From IMG/VR virus record IMGVR_UViG_3300028416_000004, positions 1 through 64,000 of that record: a stretch of DNA of 64,000 nucleotides; one strand, written 5' to 3'. Below, piece after piece: positions 25,989-59,047 of this stretch (position 1 is its first letter; each line of letters starts with the position of its first letter). The translations under genes and the position numbers were made by a program. This DNA is from a virus. The notes under the pieces were generated by a model. It was not told where the DNA came from. It was given only the letters and a program-made list of their open reading frames with translations, and did not search any database.

Positions 25989-26258
25989 ATGAAAGTTGTA
26001 TGTATAGATGATAAAAATAAGCCTTTAGATATTCCAAATCACAAATGGATTAAAGAAAAACAAACTTATACAATATCAAAAGTTGTTAGAATGAAATTAC
26101 AAAACAACGAATTGGGAGTTGAGCTAGAAGAGATAGATTTAACAGATTGTTTTCCTTATAATTATTTTTCACTTAAAAGATTTGCACCAATAGAACCAGA
26201 AAACCTACTAGAAAAAGAAAGGATAAAAACTTTAGAAATAGAAGAAGAATTAAAATAA
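25989..26258 (+). CDS. hypothetical small protein, SH3-like, 89 aa
   Basis: The order CIDDKNKP, HKWIKEKQTYTISKV, GVELEEIDL and YFSLKRFAPI suggests a small beta-barrel like a family of uncharacterised phage proteins. Its stop overlaps the start of the nuclease gene by 1 nt. Confidence 0.6.
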   Translation: MKVVCIDDKNKPLDIPNHKWIKEKQTYTISKVVRMKLQNNELGVELEEIDLTDCFPYNYFSLKRFAPIEPENLLEKERIKTLEIEEELK

Positions 26259-28114
26259 TGGATTTAAAACTAATATCGCAAGAAATAAAAGAAATAGTTT
26301 CTGAAAAGCAAAAAGAATTATCTTTAACTTTCGTAGAAGATACACATACATATTACATGAAAAACTTACAAGGTGAAATCGTAAGTGATTTTCCTTCAGT
26401 TTCAACTGTGTTAAAAAGTTTCTATACACCTTTTGATGCAACAACAACAAAAAGTTTTAAAAATTGTGAAGGAGACCCAATTAAAGAACAGGCTTTACTA
26501 AAAGAATGGGCTGATACTGGCGTTTATGCTTCACATATGGGAAGTAGAGTTCACTTTATTTTAGAAAAACACTTAGTAGACCTGTACGGCTCTTATAAAG
26601 ATGTTAGACAACCTATATTTGATTGTGACGAACAACAAATACAAGATGGTGACAATATGATTAAGGCTGGTAAATCTTTTGTAGATTTAATGCATTCTAG
26701 GGGAGCTGTTTTACTAGATACAGAAATGGTATTAGGAAGTTCTGAATTAGGCTACACTGGTCAACCTGATAAAGTTTGGTTAATAAACGGAAAAGAAGGA
26801 GATGTAGGTTTGGTAATTACAGATTGGAAAGGGTTGCCACTGGACACCCCAATACTAACTGGTGGTGGTTGGAAAACTATGGGTACCCTCACTAAAGAAG
26901 ATAAGGTTTATGACAAGGATGGCAATTTAGTTGATATCATGAATATCTCCCAAATTAAGAATAAAAAATGTCTTAAAATGGTTTTTGATAATGGTGATGA
27001 AATTGTATCTGATTTTGAACACAGATGGTTGGTCTATACAACACAAGATGGTGTCAAGAAAGAACGGGTAATGACAACACAAGAGATTAAAGATTATAAC
27101 GACTCTTTAGGTAAGAGATATTCACATAAGATATTAAAAATCGACAACCCCAAACCCTTGAATAATTCAAAGGTAGATTTACCTATTGACCCTTATGTAT
27201 TGGGTGTGTGGTTAGGTGATGGTCATAGTATAGATGCTAAGATTACTCAAGCTAACGAAGAAGTGTGGGAAGAAATTAAAAAAAGAGGTTATGAGGTGGG
27301 TGATGATTTATCACAGAGTGGTTGTGGTAAAGCAACTACTAGAATTATATTCGGCCTACAGGGTAAATTAAAAGAAAATAATTTATTAAAAAATAAACAT
27401 ATTCCAGAAATTTTCTTATTATCGTCATATGAACAAAGGTTAGATTTATTAAGAGGGTTAATGGATAGTGATGGAACGTATAGCAAAAGTAGAAATAGGT
27501 TCGTAATGGAGAGTACAAGAGAGAATCAAGTTGATTATTTTAACATGTTAGTTTCTTCATTAGGTGTTAAAGTTAGTAAAAGTAGTTTCACTAAAAAATT
27601 AAGTTATACCGACAAAAATGTTGTTTGTTATAGGAGTTCGTTTATTACAACAGAATTCAACCCATTCTTATGTAGAAATAAAGATTTAGAGGTTAACTGT
27701 AAAAAAGATAAAAGAACATATAGGACAATAGTTTCAATTGAAGAAGTTGAATCAGTACCAACTAAGTGTATTGAAGTGAATAGTCCATCCAGTACTTTTT
27801 TATGTGGTCATAATTTACTTGTTACTCATAATACGAATAAACCTAAAAATTTTGTACCCCAATTTTATACAAAAAAAATGTTACACCCCTTCGAAGACTA
27901 TGATGATACAGCTTTAGGTCACTATTTTGTACAATTACCTTTATATGCAAAGTTGCTTTTAAAAATGCTTGAAGGTTCTAAATATGAAAATATCCCTTTA
28001 TTAGGGGGGATAGTGGTTTTACTTACAAATAAAGGTGAATTTAAAGAATTTAGAATACCTAAAGAGATTTTAAATATAATTTCTCAACTAAACATAAAAC
28101 ATTACTTAAAATGA
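26258..28114 (+). CDS. RecB-like PD-(D/E)xK nuclease with in-frame intein
   Basis: The 618-aa precursor contains an extein of about 284 aa with RecB/Cas4-type motifs: His99 (SRVHFILEK), GQPD with Asp171, ITDWK with Asp189 and Lys191, and, beyond the intein, VQLPLYAKLL (the Q-x-x-x-Y motif). The intein (residues 192-525) is inserted right after the catalytic lysine, so the nuclease is probably inactive until splicing. Such nucleases process DNA ends in phage recombination. The gene overlaps its neighbours by 1-4 nt on both sides. The nuclease class is confident; the substrate is unknown. Confidence 0.85.
   Translation: MDLKLISQEIKEIVSEKQKELSLTFVEDTHTYYMKNLQGEIVSDFPSVSTVLKSFYTPFDATTTKSFKNCEGDPIKEQALLKEWADTGVYASHMGSRVHFILEKHLVDLYGSYKDVRQPIFDCDEQQIQDGDNMIKAGKSFVDLMHSRGAVLLDTEMVLGSSELGYTGQPDKVWLINGKEGDVGLVITDWKGLPLDTPILTGGGWKTMGTLTKEDKVYDKDGNLVDIMNISQIKNKKCLKMVFDNGDEIVSDFEHRWLVYTTQDGVKKERVMTTQEIKDYNDSLGKRYSHKILKIDNPKPLNNSKVDLPIDPYVLGVWLGDGHSIDAKITQANEEVWEEIKKRGYEVGDDLSQSGCGKATTRIIFGLQGKLKENNLLKNKHIPEIFLLSSYEQRLDLLRGLMDSDGTYSKSRNRFVMESTRENQVDYFNMLVSSLGVKVSKSSFTKKLSYTDKNVVCYRSSFITTEFNPFLCRNKDLEVNCKKDKRTYRTIVSIEEVESVPTKCIEVNSPSSTFLCGHNLLVTHNTNKPKNFVPQFYTKKMLHPFEDYDDTALGHYFVQLPLYAKLLLKMLEGSKYENIPLLGGIVVLLTNKGEFKEFRIPKEILNIISQLNIKHYLK
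26831..27832 (+). mobile_element. intein with LAGLIDADG endonuclease, probable class 3
   Basis: Residues 192-525 of the precursor form an intein. Block A reads GLPLDTPILT with Gly instead of the usual Cys1. Block B has HRW (His255, Trp257). The two LAGLIDADG motifs are VLGVWLGDG (314-322) and LLRGLMDSDG (397-406). Block F has KCIEV with Cys504, and block G ends VTHN (Thr523, His524, Asn525), followed by extein Thr526. Trp at B:12, Cys at F:4 and Thr at G:5 with no N-terminal nucleophile is the class 3 (WCT) signature. Base composition is less AT-rich than in the host gene, pointing to recent arrival. Confidence 0.85.
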
Positions 28115-32902: not shown

Positions 32903-33466
32903 ATGAGTGAAAGTTTACCATTACCAAAAGAAAGAACATTATTTTTCGGAAAAGACGTAAATCTAGAAACGATTGAAGGTTTGTCTGAAAAAATAATTGA
33001 AATAAACGAAAATGATGATTTATTAGAAAAACTATATAAAGTATATGATTTAGAATATAAACGTAAACCTATAAAAATTATGATTGATAGCTATGGAGGT
33101 TATGTTTATCAATGTATGGGTTTAATATCTATAATGGAATCATCAAAAACTAAAATTCACACTTATATTACAGGAGCTGCTATGTCTTGTGGCTTTATAA
33201 TTTTAATTTGTGGACATAAAAGATTTGGTTATAAACATGCTACACCTATGTACCATCAAGTTTCAACAGGCTTTTGGGGTAGTGTACAAGATATGAAAGA
33301 AAATTATCAAGAAACTAAAAGACTTCAAAAGAAGATTGAAAAAATAACATTAGATAAAACTAACATTTCTAAATCTAAACTAAAAGAAATATTAACAACA
33401 AAAAAAGATTGGTTTATGAACTCAAAAGAAGCAATTTCTTACGGAGTAATAGACGAAATAGTATAA
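32903..33466 (+). CDS. clpP: ClpP-like serine protease (first of two)
   Basis: The 187-aa protein has the ClpP triad: Ser95 (GAAMSCGF), His118 (PMYHQVS) and Asp169 (KKDWFM). The IMIDSYGGYVYQ segment replaces the usual LNSPGGS oxyanion region but keeps the Gly-Gly. ClpP forms a barrel that degrades proteins fed by a Clp ATPase. A second ClpP (50190) stands next to the ClpC-like unfoldase; this one lies with the rhomboid and deformylase genes. The two are divergent and may form mixed or separate complexes. Confidence 0.85.
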   Translation: MSESLPLPKERTLFFGKDVNLETIEGLSEKIIEINENDDLLEKLYKVYDLEYKRKPIKIMIDSYGGYVYQCMGLISIMESSKTKIHTYITGAAMSCGFIILICGHKRFGYKHATPMYHQVSTGFWGSVQDMKENYQETKRLQKKIEKITLDKTNISKSKLKEILTTKKDWFMNSKEAISYGVIDEIV

Positions 33467-50189: not shown

Positions 50190-50942
50190 TTATTTTTTTA
50201 CTTTTGTACTTTTAGCACTTTTTGGCGGTTCCACACCTACAATATGGTCAACAACACCATATTCAAGAGCTTCAACGGCAGTCATCCAATAATCTCTATC
50301 ACAATCTTTATAAACAGTATCATAATCTTTACCAGTATTATGTGATATTATTTCATACAACTCTTTCTTCAATAAATTAATTTGAGTTGCTGTAATTTCT
50401 ATATCAGAAGCTTGAGCTTGACCAGTACCACCTAAAGGTTGATGTTGCATAGAGCGAGAATGTTTTAAAGCATATCTTTTACCCTTTTCTCCTGCTGTTA
50501 ATAATACAAAAGCCATTGATGCACAAAGTCCCATATTATAAGTGCTAACATTTGGAGAAACAGCCTGCATAGTATCGAAAATCCCAAGTCCCGCATATAC
50601 CGAACCGCCTGGAGAATTCAGATACATCTTCACATCTTTCTGCTTGTCTACAGACTCTAAATATAAAAGTTGAGCATTTATTACATTTGCAACTTGGTCT
50701 GTAATAGGCATTCCCATATAAATAATTCTATCCATCATCAATCTTGAGAAAACATCCATTGCAACTGCATTCATTTGTCTTTCCTCTATAATATTAGGAG
50801 TCATAGCCATTGGAACATTTTGCAACATAGATGTAGGATTAAAAACATTATTCATTTGAATCTTTTCATAATCATAAAGAGTTAAACTTGAAACACCATA
50901 ATCTCTAACAAATAATTCGAAATCTTTTTTTATATTATTCAT
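50190..50942 (-). CDS. clpP: ClpP serine protease (second of two)
   Basis: The 250-aa protein has the full ClpP core: MYLNSPGGSVYAG, Ser142 (GLCASMAF), His167 (SMQHQPLGG) and Asp217 (DRDYWM). An N-terminal extension of about 60 residues precedes the core. It lies 7 nt after the ClpC-like ATPase gene, and the two very probably form one protease. Its sequence is closer to cellular ClpP than the copy at 32903. Confidence 0.93.
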   Translation of the reverse strand: MNNIKKDFELFVRDYGVSSLTLYDYEKIQMNNVFNPTSMLQNVPMAMTPNIIEERQMNAVAMDVFSRLMMDRIIYMGMPITDQVANVINAQLLYLESVDKQKDVKMYLNSPGGSVYAGLGIFDTMQAVSPNVSTYNMGLCASMAFVLLTAGEKGKRYALKHSRSMQHQPLGGTGQAQASDIEITATQINLLKKELYEIISHNTGKDYDTVYKDCDRDYWMTAVEALEYGVVDHIVGVEPPKSAKSTKVKK

Positions 50943-53179: not shown

Positions 53180-53617
53180 ATGATTAAGAAAAAGATTGGT
53201 GCTGGAATATTTGCTATAGATAAGCATACTGGGAAAATTTTATTATGTAAGAGAGGGTTGGATGGTTCATACCCAGAAAGTTGGGCTACTTTTGGGGGTA
53301 CATTTGAAGAAAGAGATGTAACACCAAAAGAAACTGCAAAAAGAGAATTTAAAGAAGAAACTAATAACATATCAACATACTTAATTTCCAAAACTCCTTT
53401 TTATGTAAATTCTAATAATTTTATTGATTTTTACACTTATTTAGGAGTTTTTAATGGACAACCAGAAATTAGAATAAACGAAGAGAGTCTAAGTTATGGA
53501 TGGTTTGATTTGGAAAATTTACCAGAAAAACTAATTCCAGGATTAAAAGAGCTTTTAAAAAACAAAAAAGATTTCATAAAGAAATTTTTAGTAAAAACAA
53601 TTGAATCTAATTATTAA
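53180..53617 (+). CDS. Nudix hydrolase
   Basis: The 145-aa protein has a Nudix box in FGGTFEERDVTPKETAKREF followed by KEETNN. Compared with G-x5-E-x7-R-E-U-x-E-E, one residue is inserted and the first Glu is Asp, while the R-E-x-x-E-E core is intact. Nudix enzymes cleave nucleoside diphosphates linked to another group, such as ADP-ribose, NADH, dNTPs or capped RNA. It is convergent with, and only 1 nt from, the DnaA-NadD fusion gene, which hints at a link to NAD metabolism, but substrate cannot be read from the sequence. Confidence 0.85.
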   Translation: MIKKKIGAGIFAIDKHTGKILLCKRGLDGSYPESWATFGGTFEERDVTPKETAKREFKEETNNISTYLISKTPFYVNSNNFIDFYTYLGVFNGQPEIRINEESLSYGWFDLENLPEKLIPGLKELLKNKKDFIKKFLVKTIESNY

Positions 53618-53618
53618 A

Positions 53619-54659
53619 CTAAAAATACAACTTCTTTTCCTCTATTATATACAAGCAATTGTCTGGCATTATATACTTTAATTTATCTATACTACCATTT
53701 TCCTTTAGGATATTTCTGATTTTAGTTGAAGATATATTAGTTTCCAAAAAACCTTCTATTCTAACAGTTTGATTAGACCTATTTTCATCTCTAATTATAG
53801 AATTTATGCCCCTCATATGAGCACCGCCTCTTTCGTAATAAAATATCTTATAATTTTCTTTAATATACTTATAGTCTTTCAATTTTTCTATATCATATAA
53901 ATAATCTGCACCCATTATCAAAGAAAAGTGATGATTTTTATATTTATTAGAAATCTCTTTCAAAGAATCTGATACTAAATTTATAACACCTTCTTCATAA
54001 TTTAATTTAGCCAATCTAAAATAAGGATTATCTAAAATTCCAGACTTCAATAAATTTATTCTATCTTTTAAACTTAACAAATCTACTTCTTTATTCTTAA
54101 CTTCATAACCTTCATCTGAAAATAGAAACCAAACTTCATCTAAATCATAATTATTAATAACATTATTAGCTATAACTAAGTGCATATTATGAATTGGATT
54201 AAAAGAACCTATAAATAAACCTACATTTAATTCTTTGTTCCTATTTTTAGAAGTTATTTTCTTTACAATAGTCATTTCTCTTTCAATTTCATTAAGTATT
54301 TTATTTTTTTTATATTTTAAATCTCTGATTGAATAAGAAATTTTGTTTTCGACTATTTTGTTCATTAAAAATTTAGAATTTATATTATTATAATTCTCTA
54401 TATATGATTTGTTAGATTCATAAAGTTGATTATGCCTTTTAATAGAGTTTATTATTGTAGAATGACCTCTTCCACCTAATATTTGACCAATATCTCTTAA
54501 ACTTAAATCAGAAAAATTATCTTTTATTATAACTGAAAAAATACTTCTTGCATCAACTATATTCTCTTTTCTAGAATTAGATATTAAATCATCAATGCTT
54601 ATAGAGTTTTCTTTATTTATAATTTCAAAAAGTAACTCTATTTCTTTATCTGGGCACAT
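53619..54659 (-). CDS. DnaA domain IV - NadD-like nucleotidyltransferase fusion
   Basis: The 346-aa protein begins with a DnaA-type C-terminal DNA-binding domain: RKENIVDARSIFSVIIKDNF and LRDIGQILGGRGHSTIINSI (about 30-75), matching the DnaA GGRDHTTV signature with Gly for Asp. After a basic helical linker, a nicotinate/nicotinamide mononucleotide adenylyltransferase follows: GLFIGSFNPIHNMHLVIANN (147-166), FSLIMGADYL, and ISSTKIR near residue 311. NadD makes NaAD for NAD synthesis. The only familiar parallel is NadR, where a different HTH domain is fused to NMNAT. Both halves are clear by motif; the combined function is unknown. Confidence 0.85.
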   Translation of the reverse strand: MCPDKEIELLFEIINKENSISIDDLISNSRKENIVDARSIFSVIIKDNFSDLSLRDIGQILGGRGHSTIINSIKRHNQLYESNKSYIENYNNINSKFLMNKIVENKISYSIRDLKYKKNKILNEIEREMTIVKKITSKNRNKELNVGLFIGSFNPIHNMHLVIANNVINNYDLDEVWFLFSDEGYEVKNKEVDLLSLKDRINLLKSGILDNPYFRLAKLNYEEGVINLVSDSLKEISNKYKNHHFSLIMGADYLYDIEKLKDYKYIKENYKIFYYERGGAHMRGINSIIRDENRSNQTVRIEGFLETNISSTKIRNILKENGSIDKLKYIMPDNCLYIIEEKKLYF

Positions 54660-54737: not shown

Positions 54738-56177
54738 TTAAAATTGCAATAACATATAATACAAACTAACTTTAGGTCTAGACACAGCAACATAATGAAT
54801 ATTTTTCTCATCATGATAATTATCCATATTAGAGTTAAAAGTATAAAATTCTTTTTTATTTTCAGGCAATTCAATCTTGTTTTGTTTAATTAATCCTTCT
54901 GGTAAAGAATTAACAACAACACAAGTGTCAAACTCTTTTCCTTTTGATTTATGTATTGTAGTCACAAAGTTTTTATTATCTTTGTTGCTCTCTATAAAAT
55001 TAATCAAATCTGTAACACCCCCTGTAAACCTTTCTAAAACATAATCTATTTTTTTTTGAGTTAAAATGTTTATTTTTCCTTTTTTAATATCTTCAATATC
55101 ACTAACTTTGAAAAAATTAAAATATTTCATAGGAACTTTTTTGATTAACATATTATATTCTATCATTTTAACAATGTGATTAGTTCTTGCCAAAATAACA
55201 ACTTCATCTTTATTGTTAATCAAATTAATTAATTTATTGTAATCAATTAAATCATGACATATTTTACCTTCAAATTCATTAAACGTTTTTGCCTCTAAAT
55301 TAGAAAAATTATTAGAATTTTCAACTATCTGTTTAGCACTTCTAAAATTAGTAGTAAGACTCATTCTTTCAATTTTTCTTCTTTTTTCTAATGTACTTTC
55401 AATATTTTTACAATTAACATTACTATATCCATATATAGATTGATTCAAATCTCCAACTAAATAATAAATTTTAGCATTCAGCCTCATTAATATTTCCATC
55501 TGAATAGCACTTGTATCTTGATATTCATCTAAAAAAAGATAATCATATCTATCTTTAAACATTTTAAGCCATTTATTATCTTTCAACAATTCTCTAACAT
55601 CCAATAAGATATCAGAAAAATCCCTCTTATTCTCTTCTAATAAATAACTTGAATATTCTACATAATATTCTGGAACATCTACTTCTACACTATCTGCATT
55701 TTGCAATTTATAGGAAGATATTTTAGATTCTAAAAAACTAGAATCATCATAAAGATTAGAAATTAACTTTTCAAACTGTAAAATTTCTTTTTCACTAGAA
55801 TCTTCTGTAGGTCTATTTTTCACCTCAAACCAATTAATAAATTCATCAAAATTTGTTACTTGCTTAAATTTACCCATTTTATGCAACACCCAAAAACAAA
55901 AAGAGTGTATTGTAGTTATTCTAATGTCAGAATTTTCAACTCTAGCCTTTAACTCCTCTACAGCAGCATTAGTAAAACTGAAAAATATAATTCTTTTTGG
56001 GTCAACTCCTTTACTTAATAAATACTTCAACCTCTGAACACAACAAAAAGACTTACCACTACCAGCAGTAGAAGACATTATGATAGATTTTTTACCAGTA
56101 TACAAAACAAACTTTTTCTGTTCTTCAGTTAAATTAAGAAAAGATTCATCTTCTATTTTTGAAATATCTTGATTCAT
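54738..56177 (-). CDS. UvrD/Rep-family SF1 DNA helicase, 479 aa
   Basis: Motifs in order are Walker A STAGSGKS (36-43), FSFTNAAVEELKARV (Ia), ITTIHSFC (Ib), LFLDEYQDTSAIQ (II), LVGDLNQSIYGYSN (III), TTNFRSAKQI (IV), VTTIHKSKGKEFDTC (V) and YVAVSRPKVSLYY (VI). All are intact. At 479 aa it is compact compared with UvrD (about 720 aa) because domain 1B/2B insertions are short. Such a helicase unwinds DNA in phage replication or repair. The gene is followed upstream in the unit by a DnaQ-like exonuclease. Confidence 0.92.
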   Translation of the reverse strand: MNQDISKIEDESFLNLTEEQKKFVLYTGKKSIIMSSTAGSGKSFCCVQRLKYLLSKGVDPKRIIFFSFTNAAVEELKARVENSDIRITTIHSFCFWVLHKMGKFKQVTNFDEFINWFEVKNRPTEDSSEKEILQFEKLISNLYDDSSFLESKISSYKLQNADSVEVDVPEYYVEYSSYLLEENKRDFSDILLDVRELLKDNKWLKMFKDRYDYLFLDEYQDTSAIQMEILMRLNAKIYYLVGDLNQSIYGYSNVNCKNIESTLEKRRKIERMSLTTNFRSAKQIVENSNNFSNLEAKTFNEFEGKICHDLIDYNKLINLINNKDEVVILARTNHIVKMIEYNMLIKKVPMKYFNFFKVSDIEDIKKGKINILTQKKIDYVLERFTGGVTDLINFIESNKDNKNFVTTIHKSKGKEFDTCVVVNSLPEGLIKQNKIELPENKKEFYTFNSNMDNYHDEKNIHYVAVSRPKVSLYYMLLQF

Positions 56178-57222: not shown

Positions 57223-58089
57223 TTACTTTAAATGTTGTTTTAAAATTTTACTTCTACTCCTATGTCTTAAAACTTTTATAGCTGAATCTTTAATTTGTCT
57301 AACTCTTTCTCTCGTTAAATCAAAATATTCACCTATTTCTTCTAATGTCATTTTTTGATATCCCATTATACCAAAATACATACAAACAACCTCCATTTGT
57401 TTTAATGGAATAGTCTTTAACACTGAAGATAAATCTTTATCTAAAGACTCTGCGTTCATATTAGATTCAATGTTATTTTCTTCATCTTCTGGCACAATAT
57501 CATAAAGGCTATAATTTTCATCATCACTAGATATAGGCGCATCTAAAGACATTTGACTCTGAGTAGAACGTAACAGCCTAGAAATCTTAACAACATCCTC
57601 TTCCATTATTTCAGCTATCTCTTCTTCAGTTGGTTCTCGTTGATAATCTTGTTCAAAAGCTCTTATTTCACCTTTCATTTTATGAAATATAGATATCTGA
57701 TTACTTGGCAACCTAACTATCCTAGAATGGTTTGTTAAAGCTTCTAAAATTGATTGTCTAATCCACCACACAGCATAAGAAATAAACTTAAACCCTCTAG
57801 TTTCATCAAATCTTTCAGCAGCCTTTATAAGGCCATAATTGCCTTCATTAACTAAATCTTCAAAATTTATACCTTTACCTTGATATTGCTTTGCTACACT
57901 TATGACAAATCTTAAATTTGCTGTTATCAATTTTTGTCTTGCACCCAAATCTCCTTTTTGTGACCTAGAAGCTAACTCCTGCTCTTCTTCTTCATCTATT
58001 TGGGGAATTTTATTAACTTCACTTAAATAAGCTTTTATGGAGTCAGAATCTCTATTCGTAATTTTGTTAGTAATTTTCAATTGTCTCAT
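57223..58089 (-). CDS. rpoD: primary-type RNA polymerase sigma factor (first of two)
   Basis: The 288-aa protein starts MRQLKITNKITNRDSDSIKA, as Bacteroidetes primary sigma factors do. Region 1.2 is followed by region 2 (NLRFVISVAKQYQ, DLVNEGNYGLIKAAERFDE, FISYAVWWIRQSI), region 3 and region 4 with the HTH TLEEIGEYFDLTRERVRQIK (about 248-267). It lacks region 1.1, as is normal for this group. It may direct host RNA polymerase to phage promoters. The gene shares a unit with DNA-metabolism genes. A -7 box (58111-58118) lies 21 nt before its ATG. Confidence 0.93.
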   Translation of the reverse strand: MRQLKITNKITNRDSDSIKAYLSEVNKIPQIDEEEEQELASRSQKGDLGARQKLITANLRFVISVAKQYQGKGINFEDLVNEGNYGLIKAAERFDETRGFKFISYAVWWIRQSILEALTNHSRIVRLPSNQISIFHKMKGEIRAFEQDYQREPTEEEIAEIMEEDVVKISRLLRSTQSQMSLDAPISSDDENYSLYDIVPEDEENNIESNMNAESLDKDLSSVLKTIPLKQMEVVCMYFGIMGYQKMTLEEIGEYFDLTRERVRQIKDSAIKVLRHRSRSKILKQHLK

Positions 58090-58183: not shown

Positions 58184-59047
58184 TTAAAGATATTTCATTA
58201 AAATCTTTTTAGTATAAGAATTTCTAGCAAGTTTCTTTTGAGCTTTATTGGTAATTTGTCTAACACTTTCAGTGCTATAACCCATCATTTTTGCTATAGA
58301 ATCTTTAGATTCAACTTTACAACCAATACCATAAGTGTGAGTAATTACGAAAAGTTCTTTATCATTTAAAATTTTAAAAACTCTTTGAATATCCTGTTTT
58401 AAAGATTCATCGATTAAGTAAGAATCTGGATTTTCTGCATCTTCATCTTTCATAATATCCATCAAAGTTGAAGAATCTTCATCACTTTTTAACTTTGAAT
58501 CTAAAGATTTGTGATTATTATTAGCTGCCATTAAAATTTGTGAACTTTTGATATCAATATCCATATATTCACAAATCTCTTCCTCAGTAGGTTCTCTCTG
58601 CAAAACTTGCTGTAAGATTGATTCTGCCTTTAAATATCTTCCTAATTCAAAATTTTTATTACTTGGAATCTTAACAATCCTTTTCTTATCTGCAATAGAT
58701 TGTATAATACTTTGTCTAATCCACCAAACTGCAAAAGAAATAAACTTAAAACCTCTTGTGCCATCAAATTTTTCTGCAGCCTTAATTAAACCTAAATTAC
58801 CCTCATTAATTAAATCAGCCAAAGGGATACCTGTAGTTTGATATTTCTTTGCTACACTAATTACAAAACGAAGATTTGCTTCTACTAATTCTTTTAACGC
58901 ATTATTATCACCTTCTTTTATTAATGTAGATAATTCCAATTCTCTCTCTGGAGTTATTGTTTTACACTTATTTACATCAATAAAATATTGTTCTATAGAT
59001 TTTTCATTTCTACTTGTAAGGCTTTGTTCAATTTTAATCTGTCTCAT
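58184..59047 (-). CDS. primary-type RNA polymerase sigma factor (second, more divergent)
   Basis: The 287-aa protein keeps the family start (MRQIKIEQSLTSRNEKSIEQ) and region 2 (NLRFVISVAKKYQ, DLINEGNLGLIKAAEKFDG, FISFAVWWIRQSI). Region 4 has diverged: the HTH reads SKDSIAKMMGYSTESVRQIT (about 245-265) instead of the usual LEEIGxxFxLTRERVRQI. This may shift -33 recognition while -7 recognition stays similar. It has its own terminator. The pair suggests two classes of phage promoters. Confidence 0.92.
   Translation of the reverse strand: MRQIKIEQSLTSRNEKSIEQYFIDVNKCKTITPERELELSTLIKEGDNNALKELVEANLRFVISVAKKYQTTGIPLADLINEGNLGLIKAAEKFDGTRGFKFISFAVWWIRQSIIQSIADKKRIVKIPSNKNFELGRYLKAESILQQVLQREPTEEEICEYMDIDIKSSQILMAANNNHKSLDSKLKSDEDSSTLMDIMKDEDAENPDSYLIDESLKQDIQRVFKILNDKELFVITHTYGIGCKVESKDSIAKMMGYSTESVRQITNKAQKKLARNSYTKKILMKYL

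Follow-up and report, generated by a model that had tools for sequence, protein, structure and literature searches.

The analysis of the 64,000-nucleotide stretch studied here (the window), which is part of a 232,514-base virus record with 27% GC, confirmed that a DnaA domain IV and a NadD-type nucleotidyltransferase are joined in one real protein of 346 aa (53619..54659, minus strand), which is also encoded as one ORF in two related viral contigs, L022 and L023. With a probability of about one half, we propose that it is a bifunctional jumbo-phage protein, namely a DNA-tethered, NAD-restoring adenylyltransferase that would more likely use NMN than NaMN. The domains, both predicted folds, the conservation, the purifying selection, the gene neighbourhood and the pocket substitutions are the basis from which we infer an enzymatic activity, the NMN preference, DNA binding, its target sites and an anti-defence role. 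The C-terminal half would be a NadD-derived adenylyltransferase acting on ATP and a pyridine mononucleotide (NMN being likelier than NaMN) and would help to rebuild NAD+ during infection; the N-terminal domain would hold the enzyme on DnaA-box-like DNA, and this tethering could serve NadR-like gene regulation or the occupation of host DnaA boxes. Since two relatives carry the fusion beside NAD-rebuilding genes, it probably helps the virus to restore NAD that is lost to the host's own defence.

The fusion ORF runs uninterrupted on the minus strand from an ATG at 54659 to a stop at 53619. The search against Pfam with hmmscan gave only two domains above the cut-offs, both in the same frame: Bac_DnaA_C (PF08299) at residues 8-75 (54435..54638, minus strand; E 5.2e-15, 55.7 bits against a gathering cut-off of 31.5) and CTP_transf_like at residues 148-316 (E 1.6e-15, 57.9 bits against a cut-off of 21). 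The NadD/NMNAT-type domain as a whole, delimited by TIGR00482, the model and Foldseek, covers residues 144-346 (53622..54230, minus strand). TIGR00482 (NCBIfam) matched residues 148-345 with E 2.4e-31 and 109.3 bits, 3 bits short of the curated cut-off of 112.45, which was also missed by the relatives (99.7 and 99.9 bits). Sequence searches of the PDB led from residues 142-345 to NadD structures and from the N-terminus to the E. coli DnaA domain IV (1j1v, E 8e-7). The first-pass annotation had recognized a DnaA domain IV and a NadD-like transferase in a single frame and had suggested profile and structure searches, and all these results agree with it: both domains score above the Pfam gathering cut-offs, the first 90 residues do match DnaA domain IV, the C-terminal part matches NadD/NMNAT, and the predicted folds match DnaA domain IV and solved NadDs.

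Regarding these folds, the C-terminal half of the whole-protein model has a pLDDT mostly above 80, and its top Foldseek matches were NadD structures (8aih, 3e27; best E 1e-13), with a TM(target) of 0.80-0.88 for most of them; a HIGH-superfamily nucleotidyltransferase fold is thus present in the model. The N-terminal half had low confidence in that model due to a shallow alignment and was remodelled with DnaA_C homologues, reaching a mean pLDDT of 90 (about 95 for the DnaA domain itself). The remodelled half matches 1j1v, where the E. coli DnaA domain IV is seen with a DnaA box, with an rmsd of 1.2 A and a TM of 0.85 (Foldseek), and it also matches the M. tuberculosis DnaA-DBD 3pvp. The linker between both parts (residues 98-143; 54231..54368, minus strand) was defined from conservation, dN/dS and the model, which predicts a long helix from residue 111. 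The early concern that a start near residue 130 could separate the halves is answered by the three phages: there is a Met at position 129, yet the frame is unbroken in all of them and the linker is conserved. An extra internal start may exist within the ORF. A split-gene or frameshift artefact was rejected because the frame is kept in three independent contigs, and cellular contamination was rejected on account of the phage-type proteins encoded in the genome and the synteny of the locus in three phages.

The phage genome combines Bacteroidota-like sigma factors with phage structural genes, and from these genes and the NadD relatives a Bacteroidota-type host was assigned by eye. Two adjacent RpoD-like sigma factors of the Bacteroidota type (window 57223-58089 and 58184-59047) are kept in both relatives. 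Two ClpP-like proteases were found, one beside a Clp ATPase (window 50190-50942) and the other at 32903-33466; both are kept in G002, and the former is also present in G001. The window further contains a nuclease-like ORF of 618 aa (26258-28114) with a seeming intein-like insert, as read by eye (GLPLDTPILTGGGWK... to ...LLVTHN). Apart from this, the DNA polymerase III alpha gene of G000 (98060-102563, equal to L005 14060-18563) looks split, with a downstream ORF that starts like the C-terminal part of an intein (...SYNIEGIGVHNSAAGS), and its homologue in G001 is a longer ORF of 1330 aa; from these sequences a split intein in G000 is possible.

Scanning viral sequences with the NadD motif as a seed yielded 47 NadD-like loci, and two of them, L022 and L023, match the fusion over residues 1-345 with 60-61% identity (64-65% in the DnaA part, 48-52% in the linker and 61% in the NadD part). 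Synteny links both contigs to the window phage, with a median protein identity of about 64-66%. Between L022 and L023, dN/dS was 0.08 for the DnaA part, 0.05 for the linker and 0.12 for the NadD part; between the window and the relatives, where synonymous sites are near saturation, it was mostly below 0.25 and peaked at 0.39 in the short linker. Purifying selection acts on the linker as well as on both domains. Scans with fusion-specific alignments gave no further fusions, on short-motif seeds that divergent fusions could escape, and the collections of phage and plasmid records contained none. The best 80 cellular relatives are all stand-alone NadDs, nearly all of them labelled Bacteroidota, and in 118 genomes sampled from the phylum to which a Pedobacter genome belongs, the halves matched as separate genes only. 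In addition, 20 more distant viral records reached via UvrD contained no fusion match, in a weak comparison with no positive control. Within the material covered, the fusion occurs only in the lineage of the window phage, L022 and L023.

Other combinations of NadD were observed in viral contigs. A second kind of phage fusion carries an N-terminal MazG-like domain of ~90 residues in huge-phage contigs (L047:5779-6693, L019:2722-3654, and also L052, L055, L061 and L065); Pfam confirmed MazG in L047 and not in L065. In L048:5992-7344, NadD is followed by a C-terminal NAD synthase (NadE), and L031, L046 and L053 have similar lengths.

In the enzyme arm, both His and the S..R of the H/TxGH and ISSTxxR motifs are kept. 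The HxGH-type ATP motif reads GSFNPIHNMH (54180..54209, minus strand), with Met in place of Gly; L022 and L023 have Ala at this position, as does the E. faecium-type NadD, so that the loss of this Gly alone need not inactivate the enzyme. The second motif is ISSTKIR (residues 309-315; 53715..53735, minus strand). The residues H157, H160, R200, G250, D252, R277, S310 and R315, involved in catalysis and ATP binding, are shared by all three fusions and the 80 cellular NadDs. The pyridine pocket is different. With the E. coli NadD numbering placed via the PSYT and W motifs, the Trp117 equivalent is W in 80/80 cellular Bacteroidota NadDs and L in the three fusions, the Thr85 equivalent is T in 79 of the 80 and V in the three fusions, and the Tyr84 equivalent is Y in 76 of the 80 and L or S in the fusions. 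In NadD, His45 and Trp117 are reported to stack against the ring of nicotinate, the wild-type enzyme to favour NaMN 246-fold, and the variant Y84V/Y118D to prefer NMN (PMC8035330). The Tyr118 equivalent is Lys in the fusion, as in most cellular Bacteroidota NadDs, and therefore only one of the two engineered positions, Tyr84, is informative. The replacement of near-invariant pocket residues makes it doubtful that the protein is an ordinary NaMN adenylyltransferase. It resembles an NMN-shifted or altered-substrate enzyme, and the changed Tyr84 equivalent, by analogy with the engineered variant, argues for the use of NMN; the pocket changes could equally indicate another substrate or a dead enzyme. 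In the tree, the three fusion NadD domains form one group (100/100) within the Bacteroidota-type NadDs, set off by a long stem.

The gene neighbourhood was compared by Pfam and synteny. In L022 and L023 the order is exonuclease, small ORF, UvrD, SNase (opposite strand), PRPP-synthetase-like gene, NAMPT-like gene, fusion, cytosine methylase, Nudix (opposite strand), small ORF, Clp ATPase and ClpP. The window keeps the exonuclease, the UvrD-like helicase upstream of the fusion (54738..56177, minus strand), the fusion, the convergent Nudix gene (53180..53617, plus strand), Clp and ClpP, and lacks the remaining genes. The first reading had taken the Nudix gene as strengthening a nucleotide link. 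This argument fails because in L186, L188 and L192, which are more distant, syntenic and devoid of the fusion, a Nudix gene also follows UvrD, either directly or past small ORFs; the gene was rejected as a fusion-specific partner and is an older resident of the locus, independent of the fusion.

In both relatives the PRPP-synthetase-like and NAMPT-like genes sit between UvrD and the fusion, which lies directly downstream. The NAMPT-like protein has the signature GSYSMGYATRD, with aromatics at positions 3 and 7, and it fits the Namat consensus at both of its adenine-stacking positions, resembling the GSYTYQYMTRD of Bas63 (PMC12774641); in a loop it has Lys-Tyr where Bas63 has Lys-Trp. On this signature the pair is predicted to be NARP1 (Adps-Namat), and a Prs-NAMPT (NARP2-like) identity was dropped. 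Adps and Namat are absent from the window phage genome, where no PF04095 protein, the Nampt that NARP2 pairs with an NMN adenylyltransferase, was found either; NARP1 is thus variable around the fusion and the association is non-obligatory. Furthermore, NAPRTase/NAMPT and NAD-dependent ligase were not found in the 232.5-kb phage record, which may be incomplete, so that these absences are provisional. The ligase was accordingly rejected as a local source of NMN. It should be mentioned that the divergent intergenic region ahead of the Adps-like gene (L022:3370-3510 and L023:3410-3550) is strongly conserved between the two contigs. In L022 there is an inverted repeat upstream of this gene (AATAGCGAAT-TCAT-ATTTGCTATT), which was rejected as a conserved element since its arm is not intact in L023 and the window lacks the repeat.

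In L022 and L023 the fusion would represent an additional NAD-making step within an anti-NADase cassette with Adps-Namat. In a secondary reaction, Namat is reported to make NMN as well, using PRPP and NAM (PMC12774641); this NMN would be a natural substrate for an NMN adenylyltransferase and could be finished by an NMN-using fusion. RyDEP, an enzyme inserted in a NARP1 operon that feeds the NARP1 pathway (PMC13232231), offers a precedent for an added gene serving the same pathway. In the window phage, the fusion would work alone on host-supplied mononucleotide. The earlier suggestion that NAD is restored against NAD-depleting defences is strengthened by the predicted Adps-Namat pair upstream in both relatives. 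Against the NAD-restoring reading stand the lack of NARP1 in the window phage, the missed TIGR00482 cut-off and the lack of a DnaA-box cluster.

As regards the DNA arm, Arg30 (54570..54572, minus strand) occupies the position of E. coli DnaA Arg399, a minor-groove contact (PMC5742627), and is invariant in 25/25 rows of the DnaA-domain alignment. Within the DnaA signature GGRGHST (residues 62-68; 54456..54476, minus strand), His66 and Thr68 correspond to His434 and Thr436, so that the equivalents of all three DnaA residues are kept; the Asp433 equivalent is Gly in the window copy and Asp in L022 and L023. The phage genome has one DnaA_C domain, and the DnaA AAA+ ATPase domain III (PF00308) is absent from the fusion protein and from the genome. 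In the three phage sequences covered, DnaA boxes showed no enrichment and formed no cluster, and the seeming depletion in G000 was ordinary in comparison with permuted words. No DNA target was thus found in the phages; the binding at a phage origin that had been envisaged is unsupported, and a DnaA-box array there was rejected. Viral contigs frequently encode small proteins with DnaA_C as their only domain, so phages widely reuse this domain as a DNA reader. One of them, in a further viral contig (L082:2115-2534, Pfam 33 bits), is encoded ~1.5 kb upstream of a NAMPT/Namat-like gene and may be a second case in which DnaA_C is linked to NAD genes.

The frequency of these proteins indicates that the domain works as a stand-alone DNA reader, and this favours the best surviving rival explanation, which we nevertheless consider unlikely: a metabolite-sensing regulator whose NadD domain would mainly bind NMN, NAD or ATP and alter how the DnaA domain binds DNA, with catalysis weak or absent, in the manner of NadR with its unrelated HTH. 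A pyridine pocket remodelled on a long stem branch with the fold kept, and the position of the gene within the NAD operon of the relatives, are consistent with such a regulator, but all the examined catalytic and ATP-binding residues are kept, the NadD domain is under purifying selection, and neither the NAD operon nor the fusion gene was seen to have a conserved operator upstream that matches a DnaA box. Less probable still is a takeover of the host, where the DnaA domain would compete with host DnaA at oriC and stop host initiation, the NadD part being a functionally separate NAD enzyme. The retained DNA-contacting residues would allow it, and in a phage with neither a DnaA AAA+ protein nor its own DnaA-box cluster the obvious boxes would be those of the host; this explanation leaves the joining of both domains in a single protein unaccounted for, and the Gly at the Asp433 position may change the specificity of the window copy. 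Finally, the transfer of adenylyl groups to some other phosphorylated nucleoside or sugar, outside NAD synthesis, which the replaced Trp117 and Tyr84-Thr85 equivalents would permit, is improbable given that the closest cellular relatives are Bacteroidota NadDs and that the neighbours in two phages belong to a predicted NAD+ pathway.

We therefore retain the DNA-tethered, NAD-restoring adenylyltransferase as the preferred reading. A broader and rather tentative proposal is that a single molecule would restore NAD+ and couple the NAD state to DnaA-box occupancy, affecting host initiation or phage transcription, as a NadR analogue built independently from DnaA and NadD. From the initial interpretation, the fused architecture, the NAD repletion and the contrast with NadR stood; the Nudix argument failed, binding at a phage origin is unsupported, and an ordinary NaMN enzyme is doubtful.

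In comparison with known systems, the fusion shares with bacterial NadD (NaMN adenylyltransferase, TIGR00482) the fold, the H..H and ISSxxxR motifs and the catalytic Arg and Asp, and its closest cellular sequences, the Bacteroidota NadDs, have roughly 30-38% identity. It differs from NadD in the added N-terminal DnaA domain, in the change of the HxGH Gly to Met or Ala, in the lost pyridine-pocket Trp and Tyr-Thr, and in the score below the curated cut-off. NadR is composed of an HTH, an NMNAT and a ribosylnicotinamide kinase domain, and likewise places a DNA-binding domain before an NMNAT-type domain in one protein. The contrast drawn earlier with the unrelated HTH of NadR holds: in the fusion, a DnaA domain IV takes the place of the HTH, the transferase is of the NadD type, and Pfam detects no ribosylnicotinamide kinase domain. 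Stand-alone phage DnaA_C proteins present the same DNA-binding domain, also outside full-length DnaA; among the examples listed, none is fused to a nucleotidyltransferase except in L022 and L023.

Among phage NAD-synthesis enzymes, the searched text of two viral NAD surveys includes NadV, NadM-Nudix and NadR (PMC9503650, PMC7824862), salvage genes that likewise tie a phage-encoded HIGH-superfamily nucleotidyltransferase to NAD genes; NadD and DnaA go unmentioned in that text. The DnaA-NadD combination was not found in the open literature, where absence is no proof. A NadD-derived enzyme with a DNA-binding arm would join these known kinds of phage enzyme, as a case comparable to NadR in which NAD synthesis and DNA reading were apparently combined independently. 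As the halves can be assayed separately by standard biochemistry, the link between NAD repair and DnaA-box DNA is directly testable. With respect to NARP1, the predicted Adps and Namat genes of this anti-defence operon directly adjoin the fusion in two relatives; the fusion itself is not a NARP1 component, and both genes are missing from the window phage. What appears to be new is the combination and its setting, the pathway and the two domains being known.
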